From a bacterium 336/3 (GTDB taxonomy: Bacteria > Bacteroidota > Bacteroidia > Cytophagales > Thermonemataceae): a DNA stretch of 64,000 bases. The stretch covers positions 3,185,521 to 3,249,520 of the forward strand of contig LJIE01000001.1 in NCBI GenBank assembly GCA_001281695.1. The letters run 5' to 3'. This document shows positions 8,988-56,402 of this stretch, one piece after another (the first letter of the stretch is position 1; each line of letters starts with the position of its first letter). The notes under the pieces were generated by a model, which was not told the origin of the DNA, did no database searches, and worked only from the letters and a program-made list of their open reading frames with translations. The position numbers were made by a program, and so were the translations under genes.

Positions 8988-9848
8988 ATGAAACGTATAT
9001 TTTTGAATTCTATATTTGTATTGGCTATATTTTGGTTATTTTCTTGTGAAAGAACCATAGATGTAAAACTTGACCAAGGTGAAACATTGCTTGCAGTAGA
9101 TGGCTGGATTACAGACGAAAACAAACAACAGTCCATTCGTTTGAGTACGACAGCCCCTTATTTCCAAAATGGCAAGCCCCCAGCCATAACAGATGCCATT
9201 GTTACCCTTTCAGATAGCGATGGAAACACTGAACAACTCACCCATGCAGGAAATGGTATTTATAATATCAATCAAATTGAAGGTATTGTAGGGAATACTT
9301 ACAAACTACAAATCAGATGGCAGGGTGAAACATACGAGGCTCAAACTGAAATTACACCCAATGTACCTCAAATTGATTCTATTGTGGTAAAAAAAGAAAA
9401 ACGTCCCAATATCCCCGCAAGCAAAGGTGAAGGTTATTTTCTGTTCTATAATGGACCCGAAAACGAAGGTGTAGGTGATAATTTTAGGGTAAAAGTGTAT
9501 AGAAATGACTCCCTCATGAATCGCCCTGATAATATTATTATTGCAGAAGACCAGTTTGTCGATGGTAATTATCTGAGTAATTTAGAATTGAATAACGGAG
9601 ACCCTTTCAGAGTAGGTGATAAACTAAAAGTAGAAGTATTATCTATCACTCGTGATGCATTTAATTTTTACAATGAACTGATTTTACAAACCCAAAATGG
9701 AGGTTTATTTGCCAATCCACCTTCCAATGTTCGTACCAATATACTCAATATCAATCCTAAAGGTAAAAAGGCTGTTGGTTATTTTGGTGGAGCAAGCGTG
9801 ATTAGTATGTTGGGGAAAATAGAAGGAGATGGACAAGTGATTAAATAA
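8988..9848 (+). CDS. DUF4249 lipoprotein, partner of the TonB-dependent receptor
   Basis: 286 aa. The N-terminus MKRIFLNSIFVLAIFWLFSC is a lipoprotein signal, followed by the DUF4249 start RTIDVKLDQGETLLAVDGWITDENKQ. Proteins of this family are found next to TonB-dependent receptors in Bacteroidota and are thought to sit at the cell surface as accessory ligand-binding components (family knowledge). The 6-base spacing to the receptor stop and the shared terminator downstream support a two-gene operon. It ends a little shorter than some relatives. Confidence 0.85.
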   Translation: MKRIFLNSIFVLAIFWLFSCERTIDVKLDQGETLLAVDGWITDENKQQSIRLSTTAPYFQNGKPPAITDAIVTLSDSDGNTEQLTHAGNGIYNINQIEGIVGNTYKLQIRWQGETYEAQTEITPNVPQIDSIVVKKEKRPNIPASKGEGYFLFYNGPENEGVGDNFRVKVYRNDSLMNRPDNIIIAEDQFVDGNYLSNLELNNGDPFRVGDKLKVEVLSITRDAFNFYNELILQTQNGGLFANPPSNVRTNILNINPKGKKAVGYFGGASVISMLGKIEGDGQVIK

Positions 9849-9864
9849 AAGTATACTTTATTCA

Positions 9865-9900
9865 ACAGAAAGCCTTTAAAATAGAGGCTTTCTGTTTTTT
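9865..9900 (+). terminator. Terminator of the TonB receptor/DUF4249 operon
   Basis: 11-bp stem ACAGAAAGCCT (9865-9875) with AGGCTTTCTGT (9885-9895), 9-base loop, then TTTTT. Confidence 0.85.
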
Positions 9901-9950
9901 AGGTTTATAAAACCAATGGTATACATTCGTGATTACAAATCACGAATAGC
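9901..9950. repeat. Palindromic intergenic element (REP-like)
   Basis: A perfect 10-bp inverted repeat ATTCGTGATT (9925-9934) and AATCACGAAT (9938-9947) with a 3-base loop ACA, preceded by the near-palindrome GGTTTATAAAACC (9902-9914). There is no T-run after the stem on either strand, so it is not a normal terminator. The layout resembles dispersed palindromic intergenic repeats of Bacteroidota genomes; only one copy is in this window. Confidence 0.5.
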
Positions 9951-9957
9951 GATGTTT

Positions 9958-10326
9958 TTATTTCTTGAATACATTAGGTTTTACAATAGAATCACAATTA
10001 CTCTCAGAAGAAAAATCATGAAATTTCTGAAAAAACTTAGATTCTCCTTTTTTAATAACCAGACATTCATTAAAATCCTTTTTATATATAGAATCTCCCA
10101 CCATTAAGTATTTATCTACTTCTTTGTTAATCCTAAAGATTTTTTTGTATCCTTTGTTAGTTTGAAGCTCATAAACATAGTCACTTTTTATCTTAGATTT
10201 TGTTTCAACTATGCCTTTATATTCTTCATGAGTACGTTCTTTGATATATTCACAATCGTGCCTATTTATTTGGATAAGAAAGCCAAAAATTATAGCAACA
10301 ATAATTAGAAAAATATATTTATTCAT
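9958..10326 (-). CDS. Small membrane-anchored or secreted protein, unknown
   Basis: 122 aa. Residues 1-19 (MNKYIFLIIVAIIFGFLIQ) form an uncleaved anchor or signal; the rest is charged, with a strand-rich part around SDYVYELQTNKGYKKIFRINKEVDKYLMVGDSIYKK. The latter resembles the short beta-rich lipoprotein-like orphans common in Bacteroidota. No family recognised. It lies downstream of the Pnkp-side genes on the same strand but is separated from them by 71 bases. Confidence 0.6.
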   Translation of the reverse strand: MNKYIFLIIVAIIFGFLIQINRHDCEYIKERTHEEYKGIVETKSKIKSDYVYELQTNKGYKKIFRINKEVDKYLMVGDSIYKKDFNECLVIKKGESKFFQKFHDFSSESNCDSIVKPNVFKK

Positions 10327-10397
10327 AGCAGTAGAAATTAAATTTTTCTCTCGTGTTTAGTATTACTACAAACCTAATTAAAATACAAAATCAGCCA

Positions 10398-10946
10398 TTA
10401 TAGGCTATTTATATTTGTGTAAATAATTTCCCTAAAGTTTTGACGGATTTCAAATTTCCTATTTATATTAAAATTTTTGGTTTCAATGGTATTACCATTT
10501 GTATGAGAAAGGGATAGGATAAAATCACTTTTAAAAATAAGTTTTATTCCAAAAGGACTAAACTCATACCTATTCCATCCAAAGAATTGAATATTACTAA
10601 TTTTTCTTGTTATGACATCCTTGAAAGAATTTGAATTAGAAAAATCATAATATTCATATTCATAAGAAAACCACATTTCCTCATCAGATTCTATACTTAT
10701 GCGTTTTTCTATATTTTTATAAAAATCTTCTTCTTGCAAGCATCTAGTGGGTAATTCTTCAAGTGTTACAGCAGGCGATTCCCAATCACTTAAATCTGTT
10801 CCTATTACAATAAGTTGGTTAGGCATTTTATTCATCACCAAGCCTAACTTAACATCAATATCTTCTATTCCATCTGAACACATTATTAGAAATAATCTTT
10901 CTATTGTATCTCCCAAAAGTCTTTTAAGTATTTCTATATAGTTCAT
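10398..10946 (-). CDS. Unknown protein encoded directly behind pnkp
   Basis: 182 aa from the ATG at 10946 (a GTG two codons earlier at 10952 is also possible). The reverse-strand sequence reads TAGGTGAGT then ATG, so the pnkp stop codon overlaps a purine-rich Shine-Dalgarno-like stretch, suggesting translational coupling. The protein is acidic, without signal or membrane segments, with aromatic-rich parts (EEMWFSYEYEYYDF, FFGWNRYEFSPFGIK). No domain was recognised. Its position makes it a candidate third component of the RNA-repair cassette, or an unrelated gene carried with it. Confidence 0.68.
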   Translation of the reverse strand: MNYIEILKRLLGDTIERLFLIMCSDGIEDIDVKLGLVMNKMPNQLIVIGTDLSDWESPAVTLEELPTRCLQEEDFYKNIEKRISIESDEEMWFSYEYEYYDFSNSNSFKDVITRKISNIQFFGWNRYEFSPFGIKLIFKSDFILSLSHTNGNTIETKNFNINRKFEIRQNFREIIYTNINSL

Positions 10947-10952
10947 ACTCAC

Positions 10953-13523
10953 CTACAATCTTGGGTCAATGTCTTCACTCTCAAGGGCTAGGAGTCCAAA
11001 AACACTTTCGTGGGTTTTTCTGAGAGGCTCTTTTCGTACAAAACGCTCCAAAGACTCAATACTCAAAGCAAACTCTCTGAGTGCCAGTGATTGTTTGGCA
11101 TTCAAGGCTCTGTTTTTCAGGCGTTTTAAATTTTCGGGCAAATCGTACTCTGCACCATAAATAATACGTAAATACTCTTTTCCACGACATTTGATAGCTG
11201 GTTGCAGAAAATCAGCTTTTTGGTATGCAATAAAATCGTAAGGTTTTACCACCATTCCCTCTCCTCCTTTGGCAGTGAGTTCGAGCCACCAAGCCACAGC
11301 CTCATCGTAGCTGGCATCATCATGGAAATCTACAATTTTATAGGGCGTTTCAACCATAAAAGAAGGGTTATGTTTGCAGATTTCGGCAATTTGTTGCATG
11401 TGCCATTCATGGGTTTTATCAATGTGTACTTTGCCCTCTGTTGCCAGAATATGAAAAGGAGCAAGTTTATAATCATCAATGCTGTTTACTTCCCAGCAAT
11501 ACTGCTGATAAGCCTTGATATAATGCTGAACAGCACTATTTTTTGCCTTTATTTTTTCATAAAATTTTTCTACACCTTCAATACCTCTTGCAAGTGTCAG
11601 GGCAAGGGCTTTTTCGGCTTCGGGCAGAGCAGCACTGGCAGCAGCCCCTACAGCAGCATATTGCTCTTTGAGCAGGGCTTGGGCTTTGGCAGACCAAGGC
11701 ATCAGTTCAGTATCAAAACACACCCATTCTGTTTGAAATTTCTTCCAGAAATCAGCTTTATCCAAACACTCTTTTACTCTATTCAAAAAAGCCTTTTCGA
11801 GTATCTCATCATTGAAAAAATTTCTACCTGAACGAGTATAACACACTCCTATTCCTTCATTTTCAACACCAAAACGTTTGAGAGCAGCCTCTTCATCTTT
11901 ACAAAGTACTATCACAGCCCTCGAACCCATGTGTTTTTCTTCGCAAATCACCTTCTGAACGTCTTTTTTCTGGTAATAATCCAAAGCTTCTGTAGGATAT
12001 TCCAAGTATTCAGGCAAGCTACTAGTGGCACATGGCGACATAGTAGGTGGCAGGTAAATCAGCCATTTGGGATTTACGGCAAATCTACTCATCACTTCCA
12101 AAGCAGCGATTGAGTTTTCTTCTCGGATAGTAATATTGCTTCTAAGCCTTGTCTGGATAATTCTTTTGCCTATTACCTCTTCTACATCCAATACATCATC
12201 GTATTCTTGTTGAGCATTTAAAGCATTTTCTTCTGATAAAAATGGCTTTCTGGGGGTATAATATTCTTTTTTAGCTTTTACAGATACCAATTGATCTTCG
12301 GGATACCTTAACGCTGTGAGCTTTCCACCAAAAACGCAACCTGTATCAATATCAATGGTTCTGTTGAGCCACTCTGCTTCGGGTACAGGCGTATGTCCAT
12401 AGACTACTTTGGCTTTTCCTTTGTAGTCTTTTGCCCAATTGTAACGAACAGGCAAACCAAATTCATCTATTTCGCCTGTTGTTTCGCCATACATACAAAA
12501 AGCCCTGATAGCTCCAGAGCCACGTCCCTGCATTTCTTCTCGGATGCCTGCATGAGCTACTACCAGTCTGCCTTCATCAAATACATAATGGCTTACTAAT
12601 TTGTATAAAAACTTCTCTAATTTTTGTTTGAATTCGTCTGTTTCTTTTTCAAGTTGCTCAACAGTTGTTTCCAAACCATGTTTGAGTTGTACTTTTTTGC
12701 CTGCTAAATGCTTTTGAAGCTTGGAATCGTGGTTTCCACAAACACAATAGGCTGTGCCTGCGTGTACCATGCTCATTACGAGCTTTAAAACACTTGGAGA
12801 ATCAGGTCCTCGGTCTGTCAAATCGCCTACAAAAACGGCTTTTCGGTTTTCAGGAGGAGTTACAGCAAACCCAAAATTTGTTTCGTCTTCGTCTACTTTT
12901 TCAATTTTGTAACCCAACTCTGCGAGGAGTTCTGTCAGTTCCTCGAAACAGCCATGTACATCGCCAATAATATCAAGAGGTGATGTTTCGTGTTTTTTAT
13001 CGTTGTAAAGTTTTTCACGGATAATATCTTCTACATTTTCTATCTCCTCTACGGTTTTGAGATGATAGACATGCGAAAAACCTTCTTCTTTGATACTTCT
13101 AAGGTTCTTTTTGAGTTGTTGTGATTGATTTCTGATGACATGATGTCCAAAATTTCTATCTTCTCTTTTTTTATTTCTTTCTGCACAAACTGATTCAGGA
13201 ACATCTAAAATAATAGCTATCGGTAAAACATGATAATTTCGGGCTAAATCTATGAGTGTTTTACGAGACTCTCTCTGAACGCTGGTTGCATCAATAACTG
13301 TAAGCAAACCATTTTTGAGGCGTTTTCCTGCCATAAAATGAAGCAACTCAAAGGCATCAGGGGTAGCAGCCTGATTGTTTTCATCATCAGAAATTAAGGC
13401 TCTACATTCATCAGAAGAGATGATTTCTGTTCTTTTGAAATACTTTTTAGCAAAACTACTTTTTCCAGAGCCAGAAACCCCTATTAAAACCACCAACGAC
13501 AATTCAGGAACTTTTATATGCAT
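10953..13523 (-). CDS. pnkp: Polynucleotide kinase-phosphatase, RNA-repair enzyme Pnkp
   Basis: 856 aa from the ATG at 13523; a longer TTG-started reading would add an odd hydrophobic leader and was not used. Three modules as in Clostridium thermocellum Pnkp: 5'-kinase with P-loop GVSGSGKSS (15-23); 2',3'-phosphatase of the metallophosphoesterase type with GDVHG (187-191), GDLTDRGP (233-240), GNHD (263-266) and YGHTP (375-379); ligase-like adenylyltransferase with EEKHMGSR (528-535), K530 being the expected AMP-acceptor. It heals both ends of broken RNA and, with Hen1, seals them. hen1 lies upstream on the same strand, 111 bases away. All key motifs are intact. Confidence 0.95.
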   Translation of the reverse strand: MHIKVPELSLVVLIGVSGSGKSSFAKKYFKRTEIISSDECRALISDDENNQAATPDAFELLHFMAGKRLKNGLLTVIDATSVQRESRKTLIDLARNYHVLPIAIILDVPESVCAERNKKREDRNFGHHVIRNQSQQLKKNLRSIKEEGFSHVYHLKTVEEIENVEDIIREKLYNDKKHETSPLDIIGDVHGCFEELTELLAELGYKIEKVDEDETNFGFAVTPPENRKAVFVGDLTDRGPDSPSVLKLVMSMVHAGTAYCVCGNHDSKLQKHLAGKKVQLKHGLETTVEQLEKETDEFKQKLEKFLYKLVSHYVFDEGRLVVAHAGIREEMQGRGSGAIRAFCMYGETTGEIDEFGLPVRYNWAKDYKGKAKVVYGHTPVPEAEWLNRTIDIDTGCVFGGKLTALRYPEDQLVSVKAKKEYYTPRKPFLSEENALNAQQEYDDVLDVEEVIGKRIIQTRLRSNITIREENSIAALEVMSRFAVNPKWLIYLPPTMSPCATSSLPEYLEYPTEALDYYQKKDVQKVICEEKHMGSRAVIVLCKDEEAALKRFGVENEGIGVCYTRSGRNFFNDEILEKAFLNRVKECLDKADFWKKFQTEWVCFDTELMPWSAKAQALLKEQYAAVGAAASAALPEAEKALALTLARGIEGVEKFYEKIKAKNSAVQHYIKAYQQYCWEVNSIDDYKLAPFHILATEGKVHIDKTHEWHMQQIAEICKHNPSFMVETPYKIVDFHDDASYDEAVAWWLELTAKGGEGMVVKPYDFIAYQKADFLQPAIKCRGKEYLRIIYGAEYDLPENLKRLKNRALNAKQSLALREFALSIESLERFVRKEPLRKTHESVFGLLALESEDIDPRL

Positions 13524-13555
13524 ATTTTTTGAGATATTAGATTTGAGACAGTTTG

Positions 13556-13602
13556 GAAAAAAGAGTATGGAAAAAGGAATAAGGATAAAAAACTCTTTTT
13601 TC
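13556..13602 (-). other. Hairpin and polypurine tract between hen1 and pnkp
   Basis: Perfect 11-bp inverted repeat GAAAAAAGAGT (13556-13566) with ACTCTTTTTTC (13592-13602) and a 25-base loop. On the coding (minus) strand it is preceded by an unbroken purine run (13593-13620). It could attenuate or process the hen1-pnkp message; the arm is A/T-rich, so it may also be weak. Confidence 0.4.
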
Positions 13603-13634
13603 TTTTTTCCTTCCTCCTTTATCAAAAAAAGAAT

Positions 13635-15032
13635 TTATAACTTATCCTTAAAAACCACTCCTTGGCTGGGTGAGCCTATATTTTCAGCTTCATCACCAAT
13701 ATAAAAAATGGAATAGGTGTAATTATATTTTTCTGAAATCTGCTCTACCCAAGCTTTAAATTCTTCTCTGTTCCACTCGAATCGGTGGTCTTCGTGTCGC
13801 ATAGTTTCAGCATCCAGTTTTTCCCACATGACATTGTATTCCTGATTGGGAGTAGTGAGTACAATGGTTTTGGGGCGGGCAAACTCAAACAATACTCTTT
13901 CAAAAGCTTTGAGTCTGTTAAGTTCCAGATGTTCTATCACTTCTACTACAGCAGCAGCCTCGAAGCCTTCAAAACGTTTATCTCTGTACATCAAAGAACC
14001 TTGAAATAATTGTATGCGTTCTTTTTGTTTGGGAGCCATTTCATCATAACGCAGTTTATCTTTAGCCCTCAGTAACTCCTGATATGATACGTCCATCCCT
14101 GAAATTTGCGTAATTTGGCTTTCTTTCATCAGGAGTTTAATCAGTTTACCCTCTCCACAACCCAAATCGAGTACTGTGATAGCACCAGATGCTATAATTT
14201 TTTCAGAAACCAGTTGCAAACGCTTGTCGTGGAGTGTTTCTCTTTTTACTTTCAGTTCTGTTTGTTCTTCTATTTCAGTACTTTCCAAATCTATTTCTTC
14301 TTCTTTCATAATTTGGATGGCTTTTCTAGAAAGACCATACAAGCCCAGCAAATAACGTTGTACAATTTGCTCACGTTCAGGGTGTTCTCTGAGCCACTCA
14401 CCACCTTTTTCAAGGAGTTTTTCAATTTCACTGTTATCTATAAAATAGTGTTTGTCATTATCCAAAGCAGGAATTAACACATATAAATGTGAAAGCACTT
14501 CCTGAGTAGTTTTAAAACCTTTGAGTGTAAGGCTGTAATATCGGCTTTCTCCCCAGTCAAATTTGGTATCAAGAGGGTGTCTTGTAAGGCTTACTTCATA
14601 GCCTAATGGCTCAAAAAATTTACGAATAAGCTTTTCACCACCTTTTGGAGAAGGCAATGAAGCAATTGAAATTTCAAAAGGCATTACCACTTCTACCAAT
14701 TCGGGTTTATCTTTGCATTTGCCATTGAGAGCCGTAGAAAAAGCCTTGGCAATAGCCACACTCATAAATGAAGAAGCCACATAAGGACGATCATTTACGT
14801 ACTGCCTTAACGAAAAACCATCTCCCATCATATTTTTTGAGCCTCTAACCATATCAATGGGGTCAATATCAAGCATCAACGAAATGGTCGTTCGTTCATC
14901 GCTTTTTTCGGGGTAAAAGATATGAGCTTTCCCTACCGAAAGTTCGATGGTCTGGAATTTATCAGGGTGTTTATGAAGCAAATACCCCAAATCAGTAGCA
15001 GGGTAATGAGTTGTTGAGATGTTTAAAAGCAT
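13635..15032 (-). CDS. hen1: 3'-terminal RNA ribose 2'-O-methyltransferase Hen1
   Basis: 465 aa, the bacterial Hen1 size. The N-terminal half (1-245) is the bacterial-specific region that supports Pnkp ligase activity, starting MLLNISTTHYPATDLGYLLHKHP and containing the conserved SLRQYVNDRPYVASSFMSVA. The C-terminal half is a methyltransferase with SAM motif DLGCGEGK (289-296) and the metal-binding set E364, E367, H368 in EVIEHL and H413 in MRHEDH. It methylates the 2'-OH at the repair site before sealing, which protects the RNA from being cut again. It is followed by pnkp on the same strand. Confidence 0.95.
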   Translation of the reverse strand: MLLNISTTHYPATDLGYLLHKHPDKFQTIELSVGKAHIFYPEKSDERTTISLMLDIDPIDMVRGSKNMMGDGFSLRQYVNDRPYVASSFMSVAIAKAFSTALNGKCKDKPELVEVVMPFEISIASLPSPKGGEKLIRKFFEPLGYEVSLTRHPLDTKFDWGESRYYSLTLKGFKTTQEVLSHLYVLIPALDNDKHYFIDNSEIEKLLEKGGEWLREHPEREQIVQRYLLGLYGLSRKAIQIMKEEEIDLESTEIEEQTELKVKRETLHDKRLQLVSEKIIASGAITVLDLGCGEGKLIKLLMKESQITQISGMDVSYQELLRAKDKLRYDEMAPKQKERIQLFQGSLMYRDKRFEGFEAAAVVEVIEHLELNRLKAFERVLFEFARPKTIVLTTPNQEYNVMWEKLDAETMRHEDHRFEWNREEFKAWVEQISEKYNYTYSIFYIGDEAENIGSPSQGVVFKDKL

Positions 15033-15079
15033 TGTTGTTTACAATTATTGCCTTAATCTATAAATTTCTTGGTAAATTT

Positions 15080-16408
15080 CTAAGGAGTTTGTGTAGTTTC
15101 AATATATGGAGAGTTTTTATCCAATACATACCAACCTATTTCTGGTTTAAGGGCTTTGGTTTGTTTGTTTTGAGTCATGCCAATAAACCCAGCTCCAAAC
15201 TCCATATTTGCCCTTAAATTAATACGAGGGTCTATCCATACAAAATCGAAACTGGAAAGCCCCGAAGGAAAATCTTTAAGTACCAAATTTGAATTATGAT
15301 AAGCATTTCCTTTCAGAAAAGCATTGCGTATATATTTCTTTTGTCCTCTTATACCAGAATTATTTTTTCTGTCTTCCAAATAAGGATATAATTTTAATAT
15401 CCAACCATTTATAAGTTTTGGACCGTAGCGTCTAACATTATTTTTAAACATATTTTGCCAAAAATCCACATCAATATTGCCTTTAGAGGCTTCTACAAAT
15501 TGGTCTAAAATAGGTATCAGGTTATCTACCCATTCATTCAAATCATATTTTCGGAAACCTTCAATTTTGTTTCGTATTTTTACCCAGTCTTCTGTTTTAC
15601 CTTCCAGTGTAATATAAGGAATACCACAACCATACATTCCATAATTAAAGTATTCTTGCATAGTTTCCATCAGTGTTACCTGATAGGCAATGGTAGCATT
15701 GAGGTCTGTTGTACTAAAAGAATCCACTATCAGCCCATAGGCATCTTCTTTGACATACTTTTTGATGCTATCTTGCCACTGAACAATGGCTTCTTCCCAA
15801 GGATTTTGTTTACCTTTTTTGAAGTCCTTTGGTACAATATCAAGTCTTTTTTTACCCTGATGAGCCACCAGAAATTTTCTGTATTTGTTGGGGTTTGTGT
15901 TGATATGTTTGGAAAATCCTTGGCAAAGTGTTAGCCAAATCATATCAGGAGAAATGACAAATGGATGATGATTGACATAGGCAATCTGCATAGAAGCTAC
16001 TAAACTACTGGCAGGAACAAGTTTTTTGGTTTTTGCATCTATTCTCGAATAGCCTTCTATACGTTTATTCAAAGCTTTTTCTATGGCTTTTACATACGAA
16101 AATTCTTGTTGTAACTTTCTGGTGGTATCTATGGTACACACTCTAAACGAAATACCTGAGTCTGTTTGGATAATTTGAGCATTCTTGGCTTTGTATATCT
16201 CTAAACCATCACTTTGTATTTTAGTAGAAAAAGTTCCATCACTTGTTTGATTGCGTTCATAATCTACAACTTCTCTATCTTCTTTTGTTAAAATAGCTTT
16301 CTGAGAAAGTTTTGACGTATCTTTTTTTACAGTTTTTTCTTCCTTGGAAGGCTTTGTATTACAAGCCATTATACCAAACATTAATAAAAATAAGATATAT
16401 GTTTTCAT
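15080..16408 (-). CDS. DUF4419 lipoprotein
   Basis: 442 aa from the ATG at 16408; the TTG three codons upstream lies in the spacer repeat. Lipoprotein signal MKTYILFLLMFGIMAC, then a linker and the DUF4419 core with ASSLVASMQIAYVNHHP near residue 125, SPDMIWLTLCQGFSKHI and the run FWQNMFKNNVRRYGPKLINGW. The biochemical role of DUF4419 is not known. It is the last gene of a three-gene run with 12-base spacers, behind two paralogous lipoproteins. Confidence 0.82.
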   Translation of the reverse strand: MKTYILFLLMFGIMACNTKPSKEEKTVKKDTSKLSQKAILTKEDREVVDYERNQTSDGTFSTKIQSDGLEIYKAKNAQIIQTDSGISFRVCTIDTTRKLQQEFSYVKAIEKALNKRIEGYSRIDAKTKKLVPASSLVASMQIAYVNHHPFVISPDMIWLTLCQGFSKHINTNPNKYRKFLVAHQGKKRLDIVPKDFKKGKQNPWEEAIVQWQDSIKKYVKEDAYGLIVDSFSTTDLNATIAYQVTLMETMQEYFNYGMYGCGIPYITLEGKTEDWVKIRNKIEGFRKYDLNEWVDNLIPILDQFVEASKGNIDVDFWQNMFKNNVRRYGPKLINGWILKLYPYLEDRKNNSGIRGQKKYIRNAFLKGNAYHNSNLVLKDFPSGLSSFDFVWIDPRINLRANMEFGAGFIGMTQNKQTKALKPEIGWYVLDKNSPYIETTQTP

Positions 16409-16548
16409 AGTATTCAAACTTTAATATTGAGTCTTCTCAAACTGTTCTAAATTAATTTGCCCTGTATATTCATTGGAAATATTTTTACCCAACCGAACTC
16501 TTAATTTAGTTGTAAAATCGCCTTTATAAATGGGAATGGGTATTATTA
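16402..16548. repeat. Near-identical direct repeat, copy 1
   Basis: About 147 bases spanning the start of the DUF4419 gene, the 12-base spacer and the 3' end of the middle lipoprotein gene. It matches 17119-17265 at a constant offset of 717 bases with only about ten differences, mostly silent. Confidence 0.85.
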
Positions 16549-17125
16549 CTAAATATCCTGCTGGTATATTTATGGTATTGGCAACAGTTGCACAAAAACG
16601 TTTAAAATCATTATTTTGTATTGATTTCCAAACGCCTTTTTTATCTTGAGCCTCTATTATCAAATCTGGAGTTTCCAAAACTGAGATAGTTTTAGAAGAT
16701 ACATTCTTAATTATCAAAGGATAGCTTTTATATGCTACCATTTTGCTTTTTACATTTTCTGCATTAATCTCTTTTATATCTACTCCTTTAGCTATACCAT
16801 AATCATAGATATTTTGGGTGGTATCTATCAAAATTTTTATAGCACCTGAATCCATAAGGCTATTTCTTGTTGAGATTTGTTTACTACTATCTTCCAAAAA
16901 TGCCTCCAAACAACAAAGATGATTAGGTATAAAAATAGTATCCTGTTCTTTTCCTGCATATTTAACATGATAATAAAATAGAGTTTGTTCTTTTTCGATT
17001 CTTTCATGTATAGGCATTTTTTTTAGATTTGTTGTATCTATAATAACTGACATTTTGTTCGTTTCCAAAGAATTACAGCTCAATAAAAAGATGAGCAGAA
17101 AAAACACAATCACATAAATTTTCAT
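16421..17125 (-). CDS. Lipoprotein of unknown function, tandem paralogue A
   Basis: 234 aa from the ATG at 17125. Lipoprotein signal MKIYVIVFFLLIFLLSC. The middle is divergent from its upstream neighbour, but the last 43 residues, from VIIPIPIYKGDFTTKLRVRLG to QFEKTQY, are the same apart from one Ile/Val change. Both share the layout: lipobox, SVIIDTTNL-type segment (VVLDTTKL in the neighbour), YPLIIKN, EAQDKKGVW/EAQDSKGNW, PIPIYKGDF. This indicates tandem duplication with later gene conversion or selection on the C-terminus. No known family recognised. Confidence 0.75.
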   Translation of the reverse strand: MKIYVIVFFLLIFLLSCNSLETNKMSVIIDTTNLKKMPIHERIEKEQTLFYYHVKYAGKEQDTIFIPNHLCCLEAFLEDSSKQISTRNSLMDSGAIKILIDTTQNIYDYGIAKGVDIKEINAENVKSKMVAYKSYPLIIKNVSSKTISVLETPDLIIEAQDKKGVWKSIQNNDFKRFCATVANTINIPAGYLVIIPIPIYKGDFTTKLRVRLGKNISNEYTGQINLEQFEKTQY

Positions 17126-17265
17126 AGTATTCAAACTTTAATATTGAGTCTTCTCAAACTGTTCTAAATTAATTTGCCCTGTATATTCATTAGAAACATT
17201 TTTACCCAATCGAACTCTTAATTTAGTGGTAAAATCCCCTTTGTAAATAGGAATGGGTACTATAA
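17119..17265. repeat. Near-identical direct repeat, copy 2
   Basis: Partner of 16402-16548. It covers the start of paralogue A, the 12-base spacer and the 3' end of paralogue B. Confidence 0.85.
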
Positions 17266-17830
17266 TTATATGATTAGGTAACCATTTAGCTATTGAACCT
17301 GCTGTACCACATCCAAATCTAATCATCTTTTTTTCCGTTATCCAATTGCCTTTGGAGTCTTGGGCTTCCATACTTAAATCAATATCATTCCCTACATAAA
17401 AATCATTTTTTGTTTGGTTCTTGATGATTAATGGATAGCATGGAAATGTTGTTTTCGTTAAATCTTGATTAGGTATTATCACTATTACTCTTAAAAAGGA
17501 TTTAGAATATATCCTTCTGTTGGTATCTATGAATAGGTTTGTTTTTAAAGAATCATCAAAACTAAAAGCATTTTGAGGCAAGGATGGCAAGTATGTTTCT
17601 TGAAATTTACGTTTATTAGATGTGTCTGGCAATAATATAGTATCCTTTATTTGCCCCACATACATAATTCGATAATCAAAAAACTGCCTATAGCTACTAT
17701 CCAGTTTTTCAATTTTTGTTAGATGTAGTTTTGTGGTGTCTAGTACCACAGGCATTGTATTTTTTTGGTGTGGTGACTTGCAAGTTGCTAAAAGTCCAAC
17801 AAATAATATTAAAATCAGATAAATTTTCAT
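17138..17830 (-). CDS. Lipoprotein of unknown function, tandem paralogue B
   Basis: 230 aa with lipoprotein signal MKIYLILILFVGLLATC. Paralogue of the next gene downstream (16421-17125), with almost the same 43-residue C-terminus and the shared blocks YPLIIKN, MEAQDSKGNW and PIPIYKGDF. It begins the three-gene lipoprotein run that ends with DUF4419. The spacer to the J-domain-like gene upstream is 31 bases, so that gene may head the same transcript. Confidence 0.75.
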   Translation of the reverse strand: MKIYLILILFVGLLATCKSPHQKNTMPVVLDTTKLHLTKIEKLDSSYRQFFDYRIMYVGQIKDTILLPDTSNKRKFQETYLPSLPQNAFSFDDSLKTNLFIDTNRRIYSKSFLRVIVIIPNQDLTKTTFPCYPLIIKNQTKNDFYVGNDIDLSMEAQDSKGNWITEKKMIRFGCGTAGSIAKWLPNHIIIVPIPIYKGDFTTKLRVRLGKNVSNEYTGQINLEQFEKTQY

Positions 17831-17861
17831 AGTTCATAATCATTTGATTTTAAGAAATTTC

Positions 17862-19004
17862 TTATTTCTTTTTCTTCTTTTTGGGGTCTTTGATTTGTAT
17901 ATTCATCATCTCCATCATTTCTAACATCATATCAAAATCTATCATGTTCTTGTCATCTATATCTGTATTTTTTAGTCTTTTTTTGACAATGGCTACATCA
18001 TCAGCTTCCATCACCATAGTTTTAAGCGAAAGTACTTCATCTTTCATGCCTTTTTCTTCTTGCTTCACCTTCCTTTCAAAATTTTTCTGTCCTGCCCATT
18101 CCATCATAGGCGAAAAATTTGCGAAGCGTTTGAGGTGTATTTGGTCTTCTAAATCTTTGATTTGCTCATTGAGATGCACAATGTAGAGTTTGATTTGCTC
18201 CTCAGCAATGGCATCAAGTTTATTTTCTCCCTCTTGGGCATATTTGATATGCAAATTGAGCAATGCAAACACATCATTTTGCTCGTAAGCAGTGGTTACT
18301 TGGTGCATCAGCTCTGTTTTTTCTTGCTTTTTATCATCATTATGTTCCAAATCTGGGTGCAAAATTTTTGCCAAGTCTGTATAAAGAGCTTTTACAGTTT
18401 TATTCAATATTTTATTTTGTTCAGCTTCTTTTTGTTCTTTTTCTAATTGTTTGGGTGTTTTCTTACGTTTTGCCTGTTTTTCTTCTTGTTTTTTCTGCAA
18501 TTCTTCTGCTTGCTCTGCCATAGATGCCATAAAACTATTGGGATCGTCCAAATCTACGTTCTCAAAATCAAAACCAAACTTTTCAGCTTGTTTCTTCATC
18601 ATGTTTTTCTGCATTTCTTTTGCTTTTGCTCGTTCTTCTTCAAAAGAAAGTGTATCTGTATGCATATTATAAAGTTCTATGGCTCTTGGCGTTTCTTCAT
18701 TTTCTAAAACGATAGACATATACTCACAAATAACCGTTGAAATTTTCTTTTTTTCTGCTTTTGTAAATTGATTATCAAAGAAATAATTATTCAACTTTTC
18801 AGCAAATTCCATACGAATTTTATTAGATTCTTTGATAAGCGGAAAAATAGATATTGTAAGTCTTTTACGTAAAAAAATCTCATGTTCTTCTATCAAATTA
18901 AGCAGAAGTTTTAACTCATCTATTTGTTTAATCTTCTGATTAAAGCTGGTTTGTGTTTTAGAAAGCTGATTTTGAACTTGCTGAGTAATAATGGGTAGAG
19001 CCAT
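17862..19004 (-). CDS. J-domain-like coiled-coil protein
   Basis: 380 aa, highly charged, with no signal or membrane segment. A J-domain-like segment lies near residues 205-260: VKALYTDLAKILHPDLEHN carries the HPD tripeptide that stimulates Hsp70, followed by a helix KTELMHQVTTAYEQNDVFALLNL. Unlike true DnaJ it has no Gly/Phe or zinc-finger region, and the rest is helical, with a Lys/Glu/Gln-rich stretch (EELQKKQEEKQAKRK) before and coiled coil after. It ends in KKKKKK. It is likely a cytosolic chaperone-linked adaptor with an unknown client. Confidence 0.7.
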   Translation of the reverse strand: MALPIITQQVQNQLSKTQTSFNQKIKQIDELKLLLNLIEEHEIFLRKRLTISIFPLIKESNKIRMEFAEKLNNYFFDNQFTKAEKKKISTVICEYMSIVLENEETPRAIELYNMHTDTLSFEEERAKAKEMQKNMMKKQAEKFGFDFENVDLDDPNSFMASMAEQAEELQKKQEEKQAKRKKTPKQLEKEQKEAEQNKILNKTVKALYTDLAKILHPDLEHNDDKKQEKTELMHQVTTAYEQNDVFALLNLHIKYAQEGENKLDAIAEEQIKLYIVHLNEQIKDLEDQIHLKRFANFSPMMEWAGQKNFERKVKQEEKGMKDEVLSLKTMVMEADDVAIVKKRLKNTDIDDKNMIDFDMMLEMMEMMNIQIKDPKKKKKK

Positions 19005-19034
19005 TGGATGATATTTAATAAGATAATGAGATTG

Positions 19035-22004
19035 TTATGGATTTACAATCGATTCATAGACAATATCTTGTATTTTTCGGCGTGTATGTTGACGTACTAT
19101 TCGAGGGTTGTCGTTAGGGTGTACCCGATTAGAAAGAAATATAATAATCAGCTCTTTTTCAGGCTCTATCCACGCTACTGTACCTGTATAACCTGAATGC
19201 CCATACGATTTATCTGTGGCATATTTAGAAATATAACCATAAATCGCATTTTTATCAGGTTTATCCCAACCCAAACCTCTTCTATTGAGGCTATCTGTCT
19301 GAGATGTAAATAATTGTATTGTCTCTGGAACAAGATAACGAATACCTCCATAATACCCTCCTTGCATATTCATTTGAAAGAGTTTAGCTAGGTCATTGGC
19401 ATTACCAAATAAACCTGCATGCCCACCTACTCCCCCCAACATAGCAGCCGTAGGGTCGTGTACTGTACCTCTCAGAAGCTCTCTTCTAAAATATTTATCA
19501 TTTTCAGTGGGTACAATCTCATCAGCTTTAAAGCACTCTAAAGGTTTATAACACAAACTATTAGCTCCTAAAGTAAGATAAAAATTATTACGTAAAAACT
19601 TATCCAAAGGTTCATTAAGTTGCTTTTCGGCTATGCGTTTGAGTATAAAAAAACTCAAATCGCTGTATTCGTAAGGGTAACGTTTGCCCTTTTTCTTGAG
19701 CATATCAGAGTCTATTGTCCATTTCCATATCAAATCTTCCATGTCTTTTCGAGCAAACAAACTTGGTGCAACTTGTAATGAAAATGTATCATCTGGTGCA
19801 TATCTATAAAACTTGGGAGAAGGTTCTCTTAATTTTCCAAAAGTTTTTCTGAAAAATAAAATATATGGTTGTAAACCCGCCTGATGCAAAATAATGTCAT
19901 GAACAATGATATTCTTCTTGTTGCTTTTTTCAAGTTCAGGAAGATACACAGAGGCTTTCAGCGATAAATCCAATTTCCCAACATCAAATAAAAACATCAA
20001 GGCTTGTGTTGTACCTGCAACCTTACTGATAGAGGCTAAATCATAAATACTCTGGGTTGTTACTTTTTGTTCACCCTGATAATCAAAATGACCATAAGCT
20101 TTTTCCCAAATTACTTTTCCTTTTCTGGCTACAAGCACCTGACAACCAGGGAATACCCTGTTGATGATAGCACTTTTGATGAGTGTATCCATTTTTTGAA
20201 GTGTATCGGTACTCATACCTACACTTTCAGGACTAAAACCATACTGCAAACGCATCACAGAAGCACTTTGTATGCCTGTACCAGCCTTGATGCCATTTAC
20301 AGAAACAGGCAAAGTACCTTTTACACCTATTGCCCCAAAAATCATTTGAGGAATGTACTTAATTGTAAAAGCATTTTCTTCGTAGGCTATGATGGCATTA
20401 CGGGTATTTGGGAAGAATTTTAAGGCATACGGATTGCCAAACAAACACAATAAGTTTTTAGGATGCTTTTTCTGTAAATCTGCTACCAAACGAATGGTTG
20501 CTGAATCTATCCCAAATTTTTTAGTAGCAAGTCTGCTCATTCCAAAAACAGAGATAATGAGTGTTTTTGAACTATCTAATTTATCAATGGTTTGGAGACG
20601 AGTTTCGATATTGTATGTCTGTGGACTGATACTAAAACGCTTTATATCAGTGTATTTACTTAAAATATCGTGGTAATAATTTGCATCTTTTTCTTGAGCA
20701 TTGATACAAACGGAAGCTATTTGATATTTATCCAAATACTTGAAAGGTAATAAACTATCCTGATTTTGTGGGATGGTTACAGCATTTTCATAAATTTTTT
20801 CTAAAAGTGTATAGTACTCTCTTTTGTGTAAGTCTTTTTGAATGTTTTGTAATTCAATAGGTTTATATTCATGCAAACCTAGTTGATATTTAGCTCTCAA
20901 GATTTTTTTTACTCTGTTTTCAAAATCTTGAGGCTTAATTTTTTTCTTTTTTAATATTTTTTTAATGGCTTTAACAGCAATAGGCACATCACCCGAAAAA
21001 AGCAATACATCATTTCCTGCAAGCAAAGCAAGAACATCCACTTCACCTGGTTTAAAGAAACTGCTTACACCTTTCATATTCAAAGCATCTGTAAATATCA
21101 ATCCCTTAAAATTCATTTTCTTGATAAGCAAATCAGTTACAACTGCCGAAGAAAGTGTTGTAGCATAATTGGGGCGTTTTTCGTAAGCAGGAATGTTTAA
21201 ATGAGCCACCATCATGCCTTGTACGCCTGCTTCAATAAGTTTTTGAAAAGGATACAACTCCAAACTATCCAAACGCTGAACATCATGTTTGAGCACAGGC
21301 AAAGCATAATGCGAATCGGCATCTGTATCCCCATGCCCCGGAAAATGCTTTGCCACAGCCATCACACCATTTTTTTGCATACCTTTCATGTAGGCTATTC
21401 CTTTTTGGGCTACTTTTTCTTTATTTTCACCAAAAGAACGAAACCCAATCACAGGATTATTAGGATTGCTATTAATATCTACGACAGGAGCAAAGTTGAC
21501 ATGAATTCCCAACCTCTTACATTGGTCAGCTATTTGGCTACCCATTTCTTCAATGAGGCTATCTTCTTTGATAGCACCAAGTGTGATTTGATAAGGATAT
21601 GAAATGGTACTATCTAATCGCATACCCAGTCCCCATTCGCCATCAATAGCAATAAGCAAAGGTATTTTGGCTTTAGTATGATAACGGTTGGTTAATTCGG
21701 CTTGTTTATAGGGCGTTCCTTGAAAAAAAATCAGCCCACCCACATGATGCTCTTTTACAAGATGATCTATTTCTTTATAATGATTTTCATCTTTGTTAGA
21801 ATAGGCTGCAACCATGAAAAGTTGTCCTATTTTTTCATCCAAACTCATGGTTTTATAAACGCTATCTACCCACTGCTCTTGTTTAAAGTAATTTATAGGG
21901 TTTACAAAAAGTGTTCTTTCTTGTGGTGAAACCTGAGGTTCTATATAATTGGATAAATGATAAACAATTGGTAATAATGCAAATAAAATTAGTTTTCTAT
22001 ACAT
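19035..22004 (-). CDS. GH3 beta-N-acetylglucosaminidase (NagZ-like) fused to a serine beta-lactamase-like domain
   Basis: 989 aa. Residues 1-20 are a signal or anchor. The GH3 domain spans about 45-380 with the NagZ signature KHFPGHGDTDADSH (219-232, H232 the likely acid/base) and the nucleophile Asp306 in FTDALNMKG. A GH3 C-terminal-like region follows to about 580. The last 390 residues are a class C beta-lactamase/penicillin-binding-like domain with SISK (658-661), YSD and GHSGYTG as the third motif. NagZ enzymes cut GlcNAc from muropeptides, so the fusion suggests a periplasmic cell-wall enzyme with two activities. Confidence 0.9.
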   Translation of the reverse strand: MYRKLILFALLPIVYHLSNYIEPQVSPQERTLFVNPINYFKQEQWVDSVYKTMSLDEKIGQLFMVAAYSNKDENHYKEIDHLVKEHHVGGLIFFQGTPYKQAELTNRYHTKAKIPLLIAIDGEWGLGMRLDSTISYPYQITLGAIKEDSLIEEMGSQIADQCKRLGIHVNFAPVVDINSNPNNPVIGFRSFGENKEKVAQKGIAYMKGMQKNGVMAVAKHFPGHGDTDADSHYALPVLKHDVQRLDSLELYPFQKLIEAGVQGMMVAHLNIPAYEKRPNYATTLSSAVVTDLLIKKMNFKGLIFTDALNMKGVSSFFKPGEVDVLALLAGNDVLLFSGDVPIAVKAIKKILKKKKIKPQDFENRVKKILRAKYQLGLHEYKPIELQNIQKDLHKREYYTLLEKIYENAVTIPQNQDSLLPFKYLDKYQIASVCINAQEKDANYYHDILSKYTDIKRFSISPQTYNIETRLQTIDKLDSSKTLIISVFGMSRLATKKFGIDSATIRLVADLQKKHPKNLLCLFGNPYALKFFPNTRNAIIAYEENAFTIKYIPQMIFGAIGVKGTLPVSVNGIKAGTGIQSASVMRLQYGFSPESVGMSTDTLQKMDTLIKSAIINRVFPGCQVLVARKGKVIWEKAYGHFDYQGEQKVTTQSIYDLASISKVAGTTQALMFLFDVGKLDLSLKASVYLPELEKSNKKNIIVHDIILHQAGLQPYILFFRKTFGKLREPSPKFYRYAPDDTFSLQVAPSLFARKDMEDLIWKWTIDSDMLKKKGKRYPYEYSDLSFFILKRIAEKQLNEPLDKFLRNNFYLTLGANSLCYKPLECFKADEIVPTENDKYFRRELLRGTVHDPTAAMLGGVGGHAGLFGNANDLAKLFQMNMQGGYYGGIRYLVPETIQLFTSQTDSLNRRGLGWDKPDKNAIYGYISKYATDKSYGHSGYTGTVAWIEPEKELIIIFLSNRVHPNDNPRIVRQHTRRKIQDIVYESIVNP

Positions 22005-22113
22005 AATAATTCAGGCAAAATATTCAAAATAAAGTCGTGATATGTTTAAAATTTTATAAATGAATGTGTGAATAAATATTTAAAAACTCAATCATTCATA
22101 GCTCATTCATTTT

Positions 22114-22335
22114 TTATTTTATTTCTTCATAATCTGTGTATTCTCCGCCCTGAAACGATTTTTTCTTATTTTTTTCTTCAGGAATAAAAACTTTCATTGT
22201 TCCTGCTTTTTCGGGTTTTTGGGGTTTAGACTGTGGTTTTTCACCACTACTTTCTTTCAGAAATTGTAATATTTTACCTAATACGCTTGAGAGAAAATAC
22301 ACCAATAAAACGATGATTAATAATGTTTTCCACAT
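22114..22335 (-). CDS. DUF4834-like small membrane protein
   Basis: 73 aa. One N-terminal membrane helix (MWKTLLIIVLLVYFLSSVLGKIL), then a Pro/Lys-rich linker and the C-terminal tail GGEYTDYEEIK, which is the conserved end of the DUF4834 family of Bacteroidota. The function is unknown. It starts 14 bases after the RMD1-family gene ends, so the two are probably co-transcribed. Confidence 0.72.
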   Translation of the reverse strand: MWKTLLIIVLLVYFLSSVLGKILQFLKESSGEKPQSKPQKPEKAGTMKVFIPEEKNKKKSFQGGEYTDYEEIK

Positions 22336-22349
22336 AAATTTTTTCTAAT

Positions 22350-23180
22350 TTATTTTCCAATCCAATCAAAAGCTTTTTTGAGCGAATCACCCAAAAATAC
22401 ATTTAAAATCTCTACCAAAATCAAAATAATAATAATCCATTCCAGTCTGGAACTTTCTCGGTGTTGAAGTAAATCTGTAAACAATACCAAGTTTTCTTCA
22501 ACAATTCGCAAACGATAGTCCAAATCTTTGAAACGAGGGTTTATATCGAATGTTTCTTTGAGTTGTTTGTTAATTTTTTCAAGTTCTTCATTATCCCAAA
22601 CAATATTGGGATCATCCAAAATATACAAATTATCTATGATACTATTTTTAATATTTTTAATTTTTCCAATCAGTTTAAGTAAGTTTTTTTTAGAAATTTT
22701 TACTTTACCAAACTGTTCAAGTTCATCAATATGCTTTTTACTACTCTTAAGCATTTCAAGGCTCAAGGAGTCATAATAATCTAAAGATACTGATTGAGCT
22801 ACATTGAGTGTGATAATCCGAATGGTATCATATTCTAAATGAGACAGAGTAATAGAATTATTTTTTACAATTGGTTTTCGAATGGTAGCATCCAAGTGAA
22901 TGGTAAAATCCTCATTTACATCAGTATTGATATATCCTTGCGAAAATTGGCTCAAAAACTTGATAAACTCATTTTTTTCTGCGATTTCATAGCCTACAAA
23001 AACCACTACTCCATGCCCAAAAACATGGATAAATCGCTGTTTATCATCTACATAAAAAGCATCCCAAATTGTTGCATATATAGGTACTTGTACATAACTT
23101 GCCCTAAATTGTTTCAAATTGATGGTTTCTGCGATTTGGTGCGACTCTAAGAGCATATAGTTTTTTCCAAAATTAGCCAT
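22350..23180 (-). CDS. RMD1/YagE (DUF155) family protein
   Basis: 276 aa. The core IWDAFYVDD, FGHGVVVFVGYE, LDYYDSLSLEMLKSS and the helical pair NLYILDDPNIVWDNEELE, LDYRLRIVEENLVLF are typical of the Rmd1/YagE family. A single C-terminal membrane helix (EWIIIILILVEILNVFLG) anchors it, with the bulk facing the cytosol. Eukaryotic members are mitochondrial inner-membrane proteins; the bacterial role is poorly known. It is divergent from cdd. Confidence 0.85.
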   Translation of the reverse strand: MANFGKNYMLLESHQIAETINLKQFRASYVQVPIYATIWDAFYVDDKQRFIHVFGHGVVVFVGYEIAEKNEFIKFLSQFSQGYINTDVNEDFTIHLDATIRKPIVKNNSITLSHLEYDTIRIITLNVAQSVSLDYYDSLSLEMLKSSKKHIDELEQFGKVKISKKNLLKLIGKIKNIKNSIIDNLYILDDPNIVWDNEELEKINKQLKETFDINPRFKDLDYRLRIVEENLVLFTDLLQHRESSRLEWIIIILILVEILNVFLGDSLKKAFDWIGK

Positions 23181-55189: not shown

Positions 55190-55267
55190 ATGTTATCTAA
55201 ACAAGAAATTATAAACTAGCAAGATTTTTGCTATAAAACAATTCACTATAAAATTATATTAAACCTT

Positions 55268-55828
55268 ATGAAAGTATTTTTTTCTATTTTATTCATTAGC
55301 TTTTCATTTTCCCTATTAGCTCAAAAGTTAGATAAACAAGAAGCGAAAGTGTGGAAAGAAAAACTCAAAAATATGAGTATTGAAGAGTTCAAAAGCTTAA
55401 ATGAAAATATAAGCCGAGATGAAGCCAAACTTGCTCAATATCAAAAAACAACACAAGAGAATAATACACAGGCTCTTTCCAAAGATGATGAGTTGAGTGT
55501 ATTAAAACAGAAAATCAAGCAACTTGAAAAAGAAACTGCCGAAGTAGATGCTTCAGACAAATCAGACAAAGGGATTGTTTTTAAAGTACAAATTGGAGCA
55601 TTTGAAAAAGTAGATATTACTGCACAAGCCAATAGCAAAAAAACTGATCTGACAGCTGAAAGAGATAATAACGTAAAAAAATATACTGTTGGATATTTTA
55701 GAGATTACTGGCAAGCTGATAAATTCAAAAAATGCCTTCAAAATCAAGGTATTACAGATGCTTGGATTGTTGCCTACAAAGATGGGAAAAGAGTAGATAT
55801 CAAAGATGTATTAAAAGAAGTTATCTAA
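55268..55828 (+). CDS. Secreted coiled-coil protein with SPOR-like C-terminus, paralogue 1
   Basis: 186 aa. Signal peptide ending SLLAQ, coiled coil (residues 20-95, with EAKVWKEKLKNMSIEEFKSL), then a C-terminal SPOR-like domain FKVQIGAFEK ... KYTVGYFRDYWQADKFKKCL ... GITDAWIVAYKDGKRV. In Cytophagales such proteins are often annotated as Ezrin/radixin/moesin-like. SPOR domains bind peptidoglycan. The next gene is a paralogue. It probably acts in the periplasm near the cell wall. Confidence 0.78.
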   Translation: MKVFFSILFISFSFSLLAQKLDKQEAKVWKEKLKNMSIEEFKSLNENISRDEAKLAQYQKTTQENNTQALSKDDELSVLKQKIKQLEKETAEVDASDKSDKGIVFKVQIGAFEKVDITAQANSKKTDLTAERDNNVKKYTVGYFRDYWQADKFKKCLQNQGITDAWIVAYKDGKRVDIKDVLKEVI

Positions 55829-55874
55829 ATCTTTATTTATCATTTATTTATCAAAACCAGATTTACCTACCATT

Positions 55875-56402
55875 ATGAAATTTATATTCTCACTTTCATT
55901 ATTATTGTTCATTAGTCATATTACATTTGCTCAGAAGCTTACAAAAGAAGAAAAAGCTGTTCAGAAAGAGTGGGAAAAACGTAAAAAATCCATGACTCCT
56001 GAAGAGTTTAAAGCTCTAACTGAGAAAAGAACAAAATTAGATGAGACGCTTAAACAAACAGAAGCTGCTTCTTTGGAAAGTGAACAAGCTTTGGCTCAAA
56101 AAACAGCTGAATTAATTACTTTACGTAATAGAGCTACAGAACTTGAAAAAGCTAAAGAAGCTGCAAAAGAGCAACAAAGTATTGCTCAAGTTTCTCCAGA
56201 AGATGCTAAAGGTACTTTTTATAAAGTTCAGATTTTTTCTTGTGATGGCAACCCAGACGAAGAAACCGCTAGAAAATATACTTTGGGGCGTTTTAATACT
56301 TTAGGTGAAGCACAAAGATTTTTAAAATCTGTACAAAAAATGCAAATAAACAATGCAAGAGTAGTTACTTATAAGAATGGTAAAGCAACCATCAATCCAT
56401 AA
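55875..56402 (+). CDS. Secreted coiled-coil protein with SPOR-like C-terminus, paralogue 2
   Basis: 175 aa, same plan as its upstream neighbour: signal peptide ending ITFAQ, coiled coil with WEKRKKSMTPEEFKALTEKR, then KGTFYKVQIFSCD ... KYTLGRFNTLGEAQRFLKSV ... INNARVVTYKNGKAT. The SPOR-like part is shorter and has Cys in the first strand. The next gene starts 2 bases after its stop, a coupled arrangement. Confidence 0.78.
   Translation: MKFIFSLSLLLFISHITFAQKLTKEEKAVQKEWEKRKKSMTPEEFKALTEKRTKLDETLKQTEAASLESEQALAQKTAELITLRNRATELEKAKEAAKEQQSIAQVSPEDAKGTFYKVQIFSCDGNPDEETARKYTLGRFNTLGEAQRFLKSVQKMQINNARVVTYKNGKATINP

Follow-up and report, generated by a model that had tools for sequence, protein, structure and literature searches.

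PE_PGRS17 and PE_PGRS18 are, in the accessible portion of the paper that describes them (PMC1762029), a duplicated pair of genes in the same orientation between whose copies a tract was transferred; the transfer was shown by strain comparison and is put down by the authors to gene conversion by homologous recombination, and the copies are separated by two other genes. In concerted evolution in prokaryotes, as outlined in the accessible part of a second paper (PMC6053082), the paralogues of one genome are more alike than their history predicts. Variation of the Mycoplasma Vpma lipoproteins is ascribed, in the extract available of a third paper (PMC5634654), to Xer1-mediated site-specific recombination. 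The two tandem genes that we describe here, A and B, most likely constitute, as judged from their sequences, a further case of a known kind, namely a tandem paralogue pair with partial gene conversion. They are adjacent homologous genes, and they show a local excess of identity that includes silent and noncoding sites. As far as the available text allows the comparison, A and B resemble PE_PGRS17/PE_PGRS18 (PMC1762029) in being a same-orientation duplicated pair with a tract moved between the copies, but they are adjacent, their divergence outside the tract is much greater, and the putative event is read from one genome. Likewise, they match the partial account of concerted evolution (PMC6053082) in being paralogues more alike than history predicts, but only their 3' ends are homogenized, and long-lasting recurrence is not evident from one genome.

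The locus occupies part of a 64-kb window, by which we mean the whole stretch of DNA that was analyzed (64,000 nucleotides), and all of its genes lie on the minus strand. Gene A, the upstream paralogue (17141..17830, 230 amino acids, stop codon at 17138-17140), is separated by a 12-bp spacer from gene B, the downstream paralogue (16424..17125, 234 amino acids, stop codon at 16421-16423), to which it is 41% identical overall; gene C (15083..16408, 442 amino acids) follows. By inspection of the translations, all three open like putative lipoproteins, with a hydrophobic N-terminus and then a cysteine; the lipobox of A reads LATC, presumably an atypical form under the lipobox rule. A and B both carry the same C-terminal "PIYKGDF" domain. 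The initial annotation had read the three genes as tandem lipoprotein paralogues, and this reading stands for the kinship of A and B and for the three lipoprotein-like starts but fails for C, which is a DUF4419 protein (PF14388, 255.3 bits, gathering cut-off 25); no other DUF4419 match occurs in this genome. C did not appear when the organism's own genome was searched with B (E up to 1) or with A (E up to 0.001), and all that it has in common with the A/B repeat is its start, ATGAAAA, which may be chance. No Pfam model matched A or B above its cut-off; the weaker matches, to two models for B (best E 0.023, this one overlapping the domain) and to one model besides DUF4419 for C (E 0.013), were taken as chance. 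NCBIfam returned only one match, for C and far below its cut-off.

Repeat search and pairwise comparison define a 147-bp direct repeat on the minus strand. Copy 1 (17119..17265) contains the end of A, its stop codon, the 12-bp spacer, and the first 7 bp of B, and copy 2 (16402..16548) contains the end of B, its stop codon, a 12-bp spacer, and the first 7 bp of C. The tract is thus mainly a 3' end and a spacer: each copy, read on the minus strand, comprises the last 41 to 42 codons of one gene, the stop codon, the spacer, and the ATGAAAA of the next gene, so that coordinates and reading frames bear out the earlier description of a repeat spanning a gene end, a spacer, and the next gene's start. 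Its near identity was also correctly described, with 138 of 147 bases the same. The offset between the copies is 717 bp, made up of B with its stop codon (705 bp) and the 12-bp spacer. Seven of the nine mismatches fall at third codon positions, and they are distributed unevenly, with none in the 73 bp at the low-coordinate end and nine in the other 74 bp. The unbroken identical stretch (17119..17191, minus strand, the same as 16402-16474) is perhaps, on this comparison, the youngest piece of the homogenized tract. Identity between the copies drops immediately beyond either edge, and automated repeat detection stretches the pair to 158 bp at 92%.

This is the sole near-identical direct repeat reported in the window (at least 45 bp, exact seed of 14), the other repeat family reported there reaching 71% over 45 bp. 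When the 158-bp sequence was searched against the genome, with 40 of 51 candidates scored, two copies were found, and the next match was one of 26 bp at E 0.03. The longest identical run in the A/B alignment covers 66 columns, a length reached by none of 20,000 shuffles of its columns (coding part, stop codon, and spacer included), the longest shuffled run being 29. The only other adjacent paralogues found in the window, a pair on the plus strand at about 55220-56399 that is 31% identical, have no near-identical block reported by that repeat search.

Homogenization of the 3' ends is evident at the level of codons. Synonymous sites outside the tail are near saturation, at 0.67 differences per site between A and B (73.25/109.8), in comparison to 0.26 in the last 43 codons (7/27.2). 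Where A and B share a residue that has more than one codon, they use the same codon at 33 of 39 positions in the tail versus 30 of 56 elsewhere (p 0.0013); the codon usage of 18 window open reading frames predicts only 19.4 of the 39, and none of 200,000 draws reached 33. The stop codon and the 12-bp spacer are identical between the two genes. Taken alone, the longest run of identical codons is of modest significance (p 0.013). Homogenization varies along the tail: the last 23 codons have hardly changed (same codon at 21 of 22 shared residues), and the first 20 are partly homogenized (12 of 17, with 7.7 expected), which suggests, on codon comparison, tracts of different age. The proteins agree at 39 of 43 residues in the tail versus 19 of 62 in the preceding part, so the statement that the paralogues keep the same last 43 residues holds as near identity rather than as identity, with 39 of the 41 residues wholly inside the repeat matching. 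An RNA element was rejected as the reason for conservation of the tract on the basis of the 96 nucleotides folded, 196 of 200 shuffles of which folded at least as well. Between positions 15000 and 19100, the numbers of promoter-like sites (15, versus an expected 19.1) and of terminator-like sites (2, versus 1.8) are at chance level.

The best explanation of these data, and one that we hold to be probable, is that an old tandem duplication was followed by divergence and then by conversion of the 3' ends, with an unequal or single crossover as an equivalent route. The duplicated unit would have been one gene together with its 12-bp spacer, giving rise to A and B, which then would have diverged to the near saturation seen outside the tail. 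Later, RecA-type homologous recombination between the 3' ends would have copied ~150 bp from one gene to the other in a tract running through the stop codon and the spacer to the next start codon. The homogenization is observed directly; the process, the enzyme, and the direction of copying we infer from one genome. Given the uneven mismatches, there may have been more than one conversion tract. The tail is additionally held by protein-level selection, being the best conserved part of a domain common, by sequence, to other Bacteroidota proteins, some of them with WG repeats. The products of this history are likely two envelope proteins, both anchored in the membrane, that differ in their heads and have one domain in common. 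Recombination between the repeat copies would excise gene B, exactly 717 bp with its spacer, and place an intact A in front of C; such a loss would be expected as a rare by-product rather than as a programmed switch.

An unlikely alternative is that B was already divergent when one homologous crossover within the tail brought it in, whether from a circle, from a sister chromosome, or from transferred DNA, so that the repeats flanking it would be hybrids. Such an entry would fit the observation that B and its spacer are exactly the unit separating the copies, and A and B indeed had no match in any of seven sampled relatives from the family (three genomes of the same genus and four others) when either was used as a single query. 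That absence says little, however, because the flanking genes are patchy too: among the three same-genus genomes, the neighboring J-domain-like protein was matched in one and Hen1 in none. The two 700-bp bins over A/B have a G+C content of 0.28-0.30; of 17 further bins within 9500-22799, 14 fall at 0.316-0.416, but the remaining three are equally low (0.269-0.303). Furthermore, protein and DNA searches of the genome revealed no donor or second locus, and no match was obtained with protein B in viral contigs, with protein A in phages, or among plasmids in a search for near-identical DNA.

A, B, and C share their strand with the J-domain-like gene upstream (17865-19004, minus strand, a DnaJ match below the cut-off) and with a bacterial RNA-repair pair directly downstream (10956-15032, minus strand), which consists of Hen1 (Hen1_L, 335 bits) and Pnkp with a ligase domain (578 bits). 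In a set of 19 genomes, the J-domain-like protein was matched in 5 and Hen1 in 6, with this genome contributing to both counts. In one same-genus genome, the gene after the J-domain-like relative is of a different kind and lies on the opposite strand, as read from its translation. The A/B region is possibly an accessory block, and any transfer of it is only putative. A mobile or phage origin for A and B was rejected: in addition to the negative searches of viral contigs with B, of plasmids for near-identical DNA, and of phages with A, A, B, and C have no relative in PHROGs. PADLOC gave no match for the three genes, and there are no tRNA genes in the 64-kb window.

Functional constraint on the tail might also account for the pattern, the DNA identity merely following from it, although we consider this very improbable as the whole explanation. 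In a set of 37 rows of relatives, some of them redundant, the mean identity of A is 0.35 over the tail against 0.19 in the 62 residues before it, and that of B is 0.35 against 0.21. The tail thus is the best conserved part of this Bacteroidota domain, and it is for this reason that protein-level selection can be said, on alignment evidence, to act on it. Selection alone would nevertheless be insufficient, because the synonymous sites, the stop codon, and the spacer are homogenized as well and because similarly diverged relatives have tails that are less alike: in the 324 of 666 pairs from the same set with identities of 0.30-0.50 in the preceding part, the mean tail identity is 0.40 and the maximum is 0.67. 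Codon bias, too, predicts far fewer shared codons than are found. The earlier proposal of gene conversion or selection on the tail therefore holds in both its parts, which seem to apply together, the tail being best conserved and the DNA homogenized beyond constraint.

The arrangement had further been likened to recombination-prone sets of variable surface lipoproteins, a resemblance that our results do not support; we give very little credence to a locus with phase or antigenic variation driven by exchange of cassettes or by changes in copy number. Direct repeats of this 147-bp size are open to homologous recombination, and here they are in frame with a spacing that is exactly gene-sized. In Vpma and Vsp genes, it is the 5' end that is shared, not the 3' end. 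Where a variable set would be a multigene family with silent or alternative cassettes, this genome contains two repeat copies (40 of 51 candidates scored) and two family members at E 0.001 or better, the next match being at E 0.22; no third member was found at that threshold, C is unrelated to A and B, and none of the four inverted repeats of at least 20 bp listed at 14000-20000 touches the repeat. No other of the 42 genomes carrying the domain, out of 390 from the order, has two listed matches close together, counting same-contig pairs among the best six candidates scored per genome; nor, as stated above, do A and B find a match among the seven family relatives. In the partial accounts available of them, the Mycoplasma Vpma/Vsp systems are like A/B in being lipoprotein gene sets with recombination suspected or shown, but A/B comprises two genes, with no sign of switching found in one genome. 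Finally, a collapsed or misjoined repeat can be practically dismissed, for while 147 bp is close to a short-read length and the genome is in 13 contigs, the copies differ at nine positions and flank different unique sequences inside a 4.1-Mb contig, and the three reading frames are all open.

The domain common to A and B spans ~110 residues with the motif PIYKGDFKTKLR...YSN...G.INLxQF, and it occurs in Bacteroidota in lipoprotein-like proteins or after WG repeats. We also located it at L008, L010, L011, L020, L031, L032, L036, and L037. Pfam had no model above its cut-off over the domain, whether in A, in B, or in 12 members taken from other genomes, and WG repeats were matched in 5 of these 12. 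Used as single queries, A or B matched 8 of 98 genomes, this one included. A five-row profile, with the best six candidates per genome scored at most, found the domain at E 1e-6 or better in the 42 order genomes given above, a count that includes this one, and in 14 of 395 genomes drawn from the phylum, again including this one. Eight other genomes of the order had two or three matches among those listed, which lay far apart or on separate contigs. A pattern scan of genome contigs gave 28 matches, 2 of which were relatives, both from Flammeovirga (L020 and L021). One relative of A/B (L080:4536-5357) lies beside McrB-like and McrC-like genes and near integrase-like genes, as read from their translations.

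In the draw from the phylum, one other genome (G588) encodes two neighboring WG-repeat proteins carrying the domain (L105:1637-5313). In this pair, a putative parallel to A and B, a 107-nucleotide block near the 5' end matches at 88% and a 44-nucleotide block in the tail at 80%; the longer of the two lies in the region where similarity within the pair is highest in any case (48% over 163 residues).

The predicted structure of full-length A has a mean pLDDT of 42.8, and that of the domain alone, predicted as mostly beta strands, has a pLDDT of 60.6. Foldseek comparison of the domain model with the PDB returned no match at E 0.001 or better; we claim no fold for the domain, since the best match was only at E 0.07. 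A profile search of PDB sequences gave nothing better than E 0.041. A fixed partnership between the domain and DUF4419 was rejected: of the 390 genomes of the order, 8 have DUF4419 (this one among them), and 4 genomes are listed with both, side by side in this one only. Two neighboring DUF4419 matches (L056 and L060) were observed in another genome of the order (G043:C1:2575969-2578344). DUF4419 figures in the literature in an amoeba genome paper, as far as its accessible text goes. Among the papers found on gene conversion, on concerted evolution of paralogues, on adjacent paralogues, and on WG repeats, no title or abstract opening names the pair or the domain, which we do not claim to be undescribed in print.

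A and B could represent a "variable head, common tail" pair, in which the heads diversify for different partners and the domain, perhaps a docking module that WG-repeat proteins use as well, is actively kept alike by recurrent conversion; on this reading, which we regard as doubtful, the L105 pair would hint at local homogenization having occurred more than once in the family. A study of Porphyromonas gingivalis surface proteins (PMC5266723) reportedly describes domain rearrangement and allelic exchange and may be relevant. The common domain could be described as a family. Most likely, from the comparisons made here, A and B represent an old tandem duplication of an ordinary sort whose 3' ends were homogenized at a later date, and the chief interest of the pair is as a neat illustration of patchy homogenization between old tandem duplicates.
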